A DNA stretch of 64,000 nt from Natronospira proteinivora (lineage in GTDB: Bacteria; Pseudomonadota; Gammaproteobacteria; Natronospirales; Natronospiraceae), in contig NZ_JALJYF010000001.1 in assembly GCF_024170465.1 (NCBI RefSeq), positions 1,488,001 to 1,552,000 on the forward strand, read 5' to 3'. Positions 38,407-64,000 of the stretch are shown here, in pieces; positions within the stretch are counted from its first letter, which is position 1, and the number at the start of each line of letters is the position of its first letter. The translations under genes and the position numbers were made by a program. The notes beneath the pieces were generated by a model, which saw only the letters and a list, made by a program, of their open reading frames with translations, searched no databases and had not been told where the DNA came from.

Positions 38407-38589
38407 GCGCAGGTCTCCCGTGGTCAATGACTGGGACGGCGCAGTTTAACGCAGTTGACCATTGCCAGACAGACGCCCGTCCTCACTCGCCTTTTCTTTC
38501 ACAAGCCGACACGGCAGGGCCTAGCGCCTGTAGTTGTTGGGCGTCACTTGAAGCAGTACCGGATTCCGCATAAAATGCGCTCAGCCATT

Positions 38590-38752
38590 GGGGAGTAGCC
38601 GCCCCGACCCCTCGGGGGCCCGTGTCAACAAACTTGGTCCACAGACCATGGCACGGGCAGCCTAACGGCCTGGCAAGACCTTTGGCACCTCACTATCCCT
38701 GCCGGGAGCCGGCGGATAGAGAGGTGTCATTGTGTTCTCTGCCGGCTCCCGC
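38590..38752 (+). ncRNA. yybP-ykoY manganese riboswitch (candidate)
   Basis: The 5' element GGGGAGTAGCC (38590-38600) and the 3' part ATGGCACGGGCAGCC...CTGGCAAGACC resemble the yybP-ykoY aptamer as found before alx and mntP. It is followed by a strong hairpin (38704-38713 with 38741-38750) that abuts the ribosome site AAGGAT of the next gene, a possible expression platform. The gene it precedes encodes a GDT1-type Mn exporter, which fits Mn2+ sensing. Confidence 0.7.
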
Positions 38753-38765
38753 AAGGATCAGAATC

Positions 38766-62895: not shown

Positions 62896-63144
62896 ATGCG
62901 TGGAAACTGGAAATGCTCCATTCGCCGAGATGCCGCGGAGGCTCTCGGCTTCAAACATGAGATCGATCCCAAACTGTTTGACAAGGTCGTCCATGCCAAG
63001 AATACCCCCCGGGAAGCGGCGGTGGCGGCGGCATTATATGAGCTACTACCCGGAGATCTGTGCGGACCGGTGGAAAAGCGGCAGCTGGAGGAATATCTGA
63101 TCGCCTGCGAGCAGGACGACAGCGACTGGCCCAGAACCCACTAG
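62896..63144 (+). CDS. Small conserved-looking hypothetical protein
   Basis: 82 residues with a strong GGAGGAGG 5-13 nt before the ATG. Soluble, mixed alpha, with DAAEALGFKHEIDPKLFDKVV and EAAVAAALYELLPGDLCG helices; one possible transcription/RNA-associated helix pair but no recognised domain. The stop at 63142-63144 is 3 bp before the repeat derived from tRNA-Arg. Confidence 0.65.
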   Translation: MRGNWKCSIRRDAAEALGFKHEIDPKLFDKVVHAKNTPREAAVAAALYELLPGDLCGPVEKRQLEEYLIACEQDDSDWPRTH

Positions 63145-63147
63145 TAA

Positions 63148-63219
63148 GCTCCATCAATCAGCCATAAAAAAACCCCGCCTTATCGGCGGGGTTCTTTTTA
63201 TGGCGGGGCTGGGAGGATT
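63148..63219 (-). repeat. Direct repeat of the tRNA-Arg 3' end and terminator (distal copy)
   Basis: 72 bp identical to 63347-63418: the last 20 nt of tRNA-Arg from the T-loop to CCA, the whole terminator, and flanking sequence. It marks the far end of the Arg-associated insert. The terminator copy at 63166-63193 also serves the small gene on the plus strand. Confidence 0.9.
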
Positions 63220-63346
63220 GCTCGGCCCGTCCCTGGGCCTCGCCCTCCGCTTCGCTCCGGGCCTTCCGCCTTCGGCGGAAGCTCAAATGCGTTCCAGACG
63301 CATTTGTCGAACCCCCGGATTGCTTGAAAAGGTCGGGGGTTCGAAG
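63220..63346 (-). mobile_element. tRNA-associated insert, Arg copy (87-bp module plus T-arm hairpin)
   Basis: Bounded by the two 72-bp repeats. In tRNA orientation it first has a hairpin built from an inverted and a direct copy of the Arg T-stem (63307-63346), then an 87-bp module (63220-63306). The module holds stem CAAATGCGT/ACGCATTTG, stem CTTCCGCC/GGCGGAAG and a G+C-rich end. It joins at the T-loop between TTCGA and ATCC. No coding capacity. Confidence 0.65.
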
Positions 63347-63364
63347 GCTCCATCAATCAGCCAT

Positions 63365-63392
63365 AAAAAAACCCCGCCTTATCGGCGGGGTT
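63365..63392 (-). terminator. Terminator of the csrA-tRNA transcription unit
   Basis: AACCCCGCC pairs with GGCGGGGTT, loop of five; seven T follow on the minus strand, 8 nt after the tRNA-Arg CCA. Confidence 0.9.
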
Positions 63393-63399
63393 CTTTTTA

Positions 63400-63476
63400 T
63401 GGCGGGGCTGGGAGGATTCGAACCCCCGACCTTTCGGTTCGTAGCCGAACGCTCTATCCAACTGAGCTACAGCCCC
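63400..63476 (-). tRNA. tRNA-Arg (anticodon ACG)
   Basis: 77 nt including encoded CCA. Acceptor GGGGCTG/CAGCCCC, anticodon loop CTACGAA, T-loop TTCGAAT. Second tRNA after csrA, as argV in E. coli. Confidence 0.97.
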
Positions 63477-63555
63477 TCTTGCTTGTTCGGATCGCCCCGT
63501 GGGCAATGCGCGAAAGCGGCGCATTATGCGGAAATGGGGTCGATCCGTCAAATAC

Positions 63556-63580
63556 CTAATCTGGCGGAGAGGGAGGGATT
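63556..63580 (-). repeat. Direct repeat of the tRNA-Ser 3' end (distal copy)
   Basis: 25 bp identical to 63739-63763, from the T-loop of tRNA-Ser through CCA to a few flanking bases. Confidence 0.85.
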
Positions 63581-63738
63581 GCTCGGCCCGTCCTGGGCCT
63601 CGCCCTCCGCTTCGCTCCGGGCCTTTCGCTGATCGCGAAAGTCCAAATCTGCTCCTGGCAGATTTGTCGAACCCTCTATCGGGTTCGAATAAGGGCCTCG
63701 TCTACCCTGGCCAACCACCGATAATCCGATGGCTCCAT
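63581..63738 (-). mobile_element. tRNA-associated insert, Ser copy (86-bp module plus T-arm hairpin)
   Basis: Same organisation as the Arg insert. The 86-bp module (63581-63666) matches in its G+C-rich part except for one base; its two hairpins have other sequences but keep the pairing (CAAATCTGC/GCAGATTTG and CTTTCGC/GCGAAAG). Next to it is an inverted/direct T-stem pair (63667-63691), then about 47 bp of unique sequence. Confidence 0.65.
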
Positions 63739-63744
63739 CTAATC

Positions 63745-63834
<90 letters not shown>

Positions 63835-63932
63835 GGGAGTTCCGCTTGCGCTGCGAAACAGAACGCGAATCATACCGACTTCCGGGGGGTCAGGTAAAGG
63901 CCTGCCACGGAGGCCGGATGACCTGACGGCAT

Positions 63933-64000
63933 TTAAGCGTTCTCTGAATCCGAGTTCTCGCCGCCTTCGCTTTCCTGGCGGATGCGTTCGTAGATCTCTT
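63933..64000 (-). CDS. csrA: Carbon storage regulator CsrA, C-terminal end (partial)
   Basis: The last 22 residues or so, EEIYERIRQE followed by an acidic tail SEGGENSDSENA, match the CsrA/RsmA C-terminus. The gene continues beyond the right edge. CsrA binds GGA motifs in mRNA leaders to control translation. The order csrA-tRNA-Ser(GCT)-tRNA-Arg(ACG) is the conserved gammaproteobacterial one, which strengthens the call. Confidence 0.85.
   Translation of the reverse strand, partial: EIYERIRQESEGGENSDSENA

Follow-up and report, generated by a model that had tools for sequence, protein, structure and literature searches.

tRNA-linked repeats (TLRs) have been known in Escherichia coli since 1978; PMC8144298, which refers to Egan and Landy (1978), Rudd (1999) and Boesl and Kersten for the early history, ascribes a known function to hardly any of them. 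The hallmark of a TLR is that 18-19 bp at its 3' end are identical to the 3' end of the RNA gene upstream (PMC8144298). Among the E. coli TLRs, rrA, rrB and rrF lie behind 5S rRNA, and the rrB copy lies in the rrnB terminators that are used on many expression plasmids (PMC8144298). RrB is expressed by read-through of terminator T1; CsrA binds it in vitro, and altering three GGA abolishes the shift (PMC8144298). In the same source, transcription, processing and binding of CsrA and Hfq are published for E. coli RrB only, a predictor of CsrA targets gives the other 19 E. coli TLRs scores of <0.01, the effects of deleting or overexpressing rrA, rrB and rrF are only modest, and a survey places rrB homologues in Enterobacteriales only (PMC8144298). 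A full-text literature search, in which few subscription journals were covered, returned no description of TLRs outside Enterobacteriales or of TLRs as mobile elements.

Here, we analysed two copies of a hairpin module that lie behind csrA in the window, i.e. the whole 64,000-nucleotide stretch of Natronospira proteinivora DNA. In the reading that we favour, at a probability of about one half, they are TLRs of the RrB type, i.e. tRNA-linked, CsrA-titrating RNAs with GGA hairpins, the core of which was once a moving cassette.

Layout of the csrA-tRNA region

Along the minus strand, csrA is followed by tRNA-Ser(GCT), the Ser-linked module, tRNA-Arg(ACG) and the Arg-linked module, in this order. 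Both modules lie behind csrA and on its strand, each directly downstream of its tRNA. The features are given below, with scores from a covariance model (R1) that was built from 15 copies, none of them from E. coli.

63933-64000, minus strand: csrA, 3' part (from translation; the whole gene is 63933-64133 in window numbering)
63745-63834, minus strand: intact tRNA-Ser(GCT) (ARAGORN, Rfam tRNA)
63739-63763, minus strand: 25-bp direct repeat, copy 1, the 3' end of the intact tRNA-Ser
63667-63688, minus strand: hairpin TCGAACCC .. GGGTTCGA, immediately ahead of the Ser-linked core (fold)
63581-63666, minus strand: core module, tRNA-Ser-linked copy (R1 96.2 bits; fold z -4.1; an R1 training sequence)
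63644-63666, 63623-63641, 63602-63622 and 63585-63599, minus strand: hairpins H1, H2, H3 and H4 of the Ser-linked core
63556-63580, minus strand: 25-bp direct repeat, copy 2 of the tRNA-Ser 3' end, 100% identical
63400-63476, minus strand: intact tRNA-Arg(ACG) (ARAGORN, Rfam tRNA)
63347-63418, minus strand: 72-bp direct repeat, copy 1, including the 3' end of the intact tRNA-Arg
63365-63397 (stem 63370-63392): terminator T1, between tRNA-Arg and module (scan reports the plus strand only)
63307-63344, minus strand: inverted plus direct T-arm forming a hairpin (TTCGAACCCCCG .. CGGGGGTTCGA) immediately ahead of the Arg-linked core (fold)
63220-63306, minus strand: core module, tRNA-Arg-linked copy (R1 104.6 bits; fold z -3.4; among the 15 training sequences)
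63284-63306, 63263-63281, 63242-63262 and 63224-63239, minus strand: hairpins H1, H2, H3 and H4 of the Arg-linked core
63148-63219, minus strand: 72-bp direct repeat, copy 2, 100% identical, with the tRNA-Arg 3' end (AATCC..CCA) and a terminator
63166-63198 (stem 63171-63193): terminator T2, beyond the Arg-linked module and identical to T1 (scan reports the plus strand only)

An earlier note had placed a two-copy non-coding module at 63220-63666; the model search returned exactly these outer ends, with both copies on the minus strand. The note needs a correction here, in that the module does not stand alone and sits in a duplicated tRNA 3' end. Read on the minus strand, each module is framed by GGTTCGA and AATCC, and a perfect repeat of the tRNA 3' end through CCA comes after it. 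The 3' end of the adjacent tRNA is present twice, and in the second copy the module splits the T-loop between TTCGA and AATCC. Moreover, a short hairpin of inverted and direct T-arm precedes each module in the folds, and the one before the Arg-linked core is 92% complementary to the T-arm region of tRNA-Arg. The Arg-linked module is flanked by the two identical terminators T1 and T2, both inside the 72-bp repeated block, and the stem of each is followed by a T-run on either strand. Around the Ser-linked module, the terminator scan found none.

A small ORF of 82 aa (62896-63144, plus strand) runs towards the tRNA-Arg repeat and ends just past the outer terminator, and a promoter-like site (10/12) lies at 63551-63523 on the minus strand between the Ser-linked module and tRNA-Arg. 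Elsewhere in the window, a manganese riboswitch (yybP-ykoY, RF00080) is found at 38578-38759 on the plus strand with 82.7 bits.

Relation to E. coli TLRs and other RNA families

Both window copies lie at a tRNA locus, downstream of the RNA gene, and show the TLR hallmark with 19/19 identical positions. Because the modules lie inside duplicated tRNA 3' ends, we identify them as tRNA-linked repeats. R1 matches rrB of E. coli MG1655 with 47.1 bits (E 6e-10); rrB shares hairpins and loops with R1, and a copy of the 5S 3' end follows directly. These three similarities point to the RrB type for the window modules. rrA, rrB and rrF share the core recognized by the model, with GGA-looped first and last hairpins, and have the 3'-end copy of the upstream RNA after the core, as in the window. 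Similarly, rrB lies between rrnB T1 and T2 and the Arg-linked copy lies between two terminators; however, in the window these two are identical to each other, unlike those of rrnB, and the window copies lie behind tRNA-Ser and tRNA-Arg instead of 5S rRNA, with the T-loop as the entry point. Altogether, on the basis of sequence and predicted folds, we conclude that both window copies are probably new members of the TLR family, of the RrB type. We also note that in MG1655 rrnB (L303, 740-811) the common rrnB T1-T2 terminator fragment holds a full module of the window family.

The tyrT repeats of MG1655 (RtT, RF00391) have the frame tRNA, inverted T-arm, GGTTCGA, core, AATCC..CCA, which is the same as in the window, and H2, H3 and the 3' end of the core are similar; by contrast, the first hairpin differs, GGA loops are absent, and R1 reaches only 10.6-18.1 bits on the tyrT repeats. 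RF00391 had no match in the window at the gathering cut-off and none at E up to 5 in 63100-63900. No Rfam family covers the modules at the gathering cut-off or at E 5, and the weak matches to rsmX, sX4 and others were set aside as chance or tRNA overlap. CsrA sponges of the CsrB/RsmX type carry GGA in hairpin loops, as the module does, whereas each window copy has only two GGA-looped hairpins and is tRNA-linked; the rsmX match is weak (23.9 bits vs a cut-off of 56). For this family, sequence search alone is misleading, i.e. blastn with a Kosakonia module gave no E. coli match although the covariance model finds rrB.

Conservation of the stems

The core is built of H1 with a 9-bp stem and a five-base loop NNGGA, H2 and H3 of variable length, and H4 with a 5-bp stem and a loop that is typically ANGGAN, followed by GAGC or a variant. 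The window copies are 81% identical over 83 nt, and the loops are kept while the stems of H1 and H2 differ. H1 reads, on the minus strand, CAAATGCGT-CTGGA-ACGCATTTG in one copy and CAAATCTGC-CAGGA-GCAGATTTG in the other; pairs 6, 7 and 9 of the 9 differ on both sides, and one-sided changes are absent. H2 (CTTCCGCC/GGCGGAAG in one copy, CTTTCGC/GCGAAAG in the other) has one double-sided change, from C-G to T-A, and one pair fewer. The compensatory changes that had been noted in both hairpins are therefore real. Because two copies alone are weak proof, a wider set was needed to settle whether they reflect a conserved structure.

The 15 copies used to train R1, aligned without structure, served as the first covariation set. 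In this alignment, 94.6% of cells pair, double changes occur in 17/27 pairs (shuffled mean 10.3), and covariation is 0.501 vs 0.145 in shuffled alignments. R1 searches of three sets of loci gave 77, 117 and 92 matches, corresponding to 73, 114 and 79 distinct rows; the 117-match set derives from 80 listed loci out of at least 120 stretches, with 78 loci plus the viral contig L223 searched and L113 and L140 left out as the same places as already counted copies from a genome of the same genus (G001). One-sided, stem-breaking changes, which the earlier note had named as evidence against it, were sought in these rows, and 95.3%, 95.3% and 97.0% of cells pair. Double changes occur in 25, 27 and 25 of 27 pairs, a level reached in 0/500 shuffles, and covariation is 0.515, 0.461 and 0.463 vs 0.142, 0.135 and 0.126 after shuffling; being fitted to R1, these three alignments lean towards the model. 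In control comparisons with slid partners, 24-50% pair, and a slide of one to three columns lowers covariation to 0.02-0.07. In total, collecting genomic copies and testing them for covariation supports a conserved secondary structure that extends far beyond the window pair, in the 15-copy set as well as in the three R1 alignments. Covariation does not say why the pairing is maintained; the reason may be a function of the RNA, mobility as folded single-stranded DNA, or both.

Distribution of the module

R1 found 8 copies in the host genome, two of them in the window, and copies in 12/20 nearest genomes, own included, one of which has 28. Under stricter filters, matches were present in 54/140 genomes of a class panel and 29/199 genomes of a phylum panel, own included in both, with 14 of the latter outside the class. 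Among the matches listed, R1-matching contigs include those of Rhodanobacter, Dyella, Microbulbifer, Yersinia, Cedecea and Kosakonia. That the window contains only two copies, one beside a young, identical 72-bp duplication, might suggest chance similarity or a duplication artefact without structure; this reading is refuted by the wider copies, i.e. by the class-panel count and by strong covariation with controls far lower, and we give it next to no credence.

Two Caldisericia contigs among the matches listed fit the H1 pattern, had no R1 match and were taken as chance. Spread by phages was also considered and dropped, as the Cedecea TLR stretch had no match in phage records and one viral contig was listed. 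This IMG/VR contig (L223, 2259-2330) has one module with flanks that likewise read GGTTCGA..AATCC. In genome G002 (L067-L077), many modules are embedded in (GACAAC)n stretches, and at seven places in G125 (L257-L263) near-identical modules share their flanks, as would result if another repeated element carried them.

Insertion sites and apparent mobility

The copies are dispersed paralogues that appear to be mobile, some of them antisense to genes, and the picture in the earlier note changes accordingly. Dispersed copies with constant ends, in frame in ORFs, were seen in relatives only; the window copies adjoin tRNAs. Because at least 120 stretches had been picked by a pattern containing TTCGA, flank statistics rest on the other copies. 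The ends are constant, and A immediately precedes the core in 178 of the 188 copies not chosen by their flank; in tandem junctions, a single base separates units in 15/17. At the same loci, the T-loop is TTCGAA in 48/59 of the tRNAs bearing a copy vs 4/12 of the other tRNAs (p 0.002). Moreover, the core lies in sense in 55/57 cases where the T-loop is TTCGAA and in antisense in 12/13 where it is not; core orientation tracks the T-loop sequence, which argues that the core is placed at TCGA/A (the slash marking the entry point) on the correct strand.

Further entry points are anticodon loops (L018, L026) and D-loops (L090, L160, L234). At L066, a core interrupts hairpin 1 of another module, and at L023 the site is a palindromic repeat. 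An RtT unit that is uninterrupted in the E. coli strain of L224 carries a core behind its ATTCGA in Kosakonia and Klebsiella aerogenes. In one genome (G139), 17 distinct matches lie within four BREX ORFs and one nuoG-like ORF (18 rows, with one match common to two overlapping ORFs and one row a partial unit). They contain no stops, the ORFs resemble BrxC, PglZ, BrxH, BrxA and NuoG, and core length plus one is divisible by three in 15/17 of them vs 32/135 near tRNAs. The BREX locus (L264, G139:C1:1266500-1284500) has brxA-, pglZ-, brxH- and brxC-like ORFs with several modules in each, and at L267 (G139:C1:3570000-3571600) five tandem 72-nt units lie in frame in the N-terminal part of the NuoG-like ORF.

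These observations would also be explained by a selfish, mobile palindromic DNA element, for which tRNA loci are merely favoured landing sites and CsrA binding is incidental, with a transposase or recombinase reading the folded loops. The precise entry rule, the insertions in diverse loops and in frame in ORFs, and the undiminished covariation in set A5, where non-tRNA copies abound, all agree with it. Rickettsia palindromic elements, which are small palindromic elements with in-frame gene insertions (PMC10969869), resemble the relatives' copies in this respect, as judged from their description, and differ in host class and size. Against a purely selfish element, the full-length tRNA 3'-end copy present in 48/76 loci is left unexplained, and the two enzyme families tried as helpers, Y1 transposases and reverse transcriptases, yielded none. 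Y1 transposases occur in 23/26 genomes with copies (nearly all with at least 4) vs 9/20 without (Fisher p 0.003, lineage uncontrolled). REP/RAYT systems have dispersed hairpin repeats, as does the module, and the host has one Y1-type gene (L032); the repeats surrounding this gene differ from the module, and RAYT was rejected as the helper. Reverse transcriptases showed no clear association with copies, and a fixed-length target duplication was ruled out because measured matches span 6 to 104 nt. We consider the selfish element a real contender, less probable than the TLR reading.

GGA loops, tRNA 3' ends and csrA

The 271 distinct copies, which include weak and reversed matches, have GGA in 221/238 readable H1 loops and 203/218 readable H4 loops, counts that are biased because the R1 training copies all carry GGA. 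A csrA motif was present in the fetched stretch at 13/17 Ser(GCT) loci, 6/12 Arg(ACG) loci and 0 of 13 Ser(CGA) loci. As Ser(CGA) bears 13 loci without a csrA motif, compared with 17 loci for Ser(GCT), csrA adjacency may merely reflect which tRNAs are hit, and a csrA-specific role is weakened.

The 18-19 nt 3'-end copy is incomplete in 28/76 measured loci; where it is complete, the match ends <=7 nt from CCA in 33 of 48 loci. Retention of the copy for processing would give this pattern, and so would an origin from a mature tRNA end. In addition, an inverted T-arm motif (TTCGAAC, TGAGAAC, GAGAAC or at least GAAC) lies between tRNA and core in 62/76 loci, mostly 45-75 nt past the tRNA end. Together with the identical frame of E. 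coli RtT and the frequent end of tRNA identity at CCA, this motif could indicate a mimic of the tRNA 3' end, i.e. a transcript folding with a T-arm and CCA end of its own that would target the enzymes of tRNA processing or exchange with the tRNA's own 3' half, the GGA loops being incidental. Antisense cores occur, T1 stands ahead of the Arg copy, and the function first claimed for the tyrT repeat has since been retracted (PMC8144298); we regard such a mimic as unlikely.

Some of these observations also argue against a simple sponge under the TLR reading. Because T1 lies in front of the Arg copy, transcription should mostly end before reaching it. Titration by an RNA is also hard to reconcile with the many copies that are antisense to genes or not part of RNA operons. 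Altogether, T1, the antisense and ORF copies, and the modest E. coli phenotypes speak against simple CsrA titration.

Discussion

Under the favoured reading of RrB-type TLRs, RNA polymerase would pass the tRNA-Arg terminator part of the time, and the Ser copy has no terminator in front. The tRNA-like 3' end would guide processing of the module transcript, and the released RNA would present two GGA hairpins to CsrA, which might be titrated in step with tRNA transcription. The core would be a small cassette that once moved to A/A sites, favouring TCGA/A in tRNA loops; we infer this step because copies are dispersed, nested and in frame.

More tentatively, TLRs may be the tRNA-bound fraction of a family of mobile hairpin cassettes that bear portable CsrA sites in two GGA hairpins and occur in Gammaproteobacteria and further Pseudomonadota. 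Such cassettes would enter at A/A, with hairpin loops as frequent sites and tRNA T-loops as the foremost ones, and could enter ORFs in frame, in some cases right behind start codons. As part of the same tentative reading, double terminators of stable-RNA operons would be by-products of the duplication that makes TLRs, an idea suggested because T1 and T2 of the window lie in one identical 72-bp duplication. TLRs themselves are already known; what is new is the mobile-cassette reading of the family, which we offer as a possibility with the odds somewhat against it.

If the rrB core belongs to a large, covarying and apparently mobile family, two questions become testable, i.e. what moves it and whether it rewires regulation. 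Portable CsrA sites could rewire regulation, and in the window they lie directly behind csrA.
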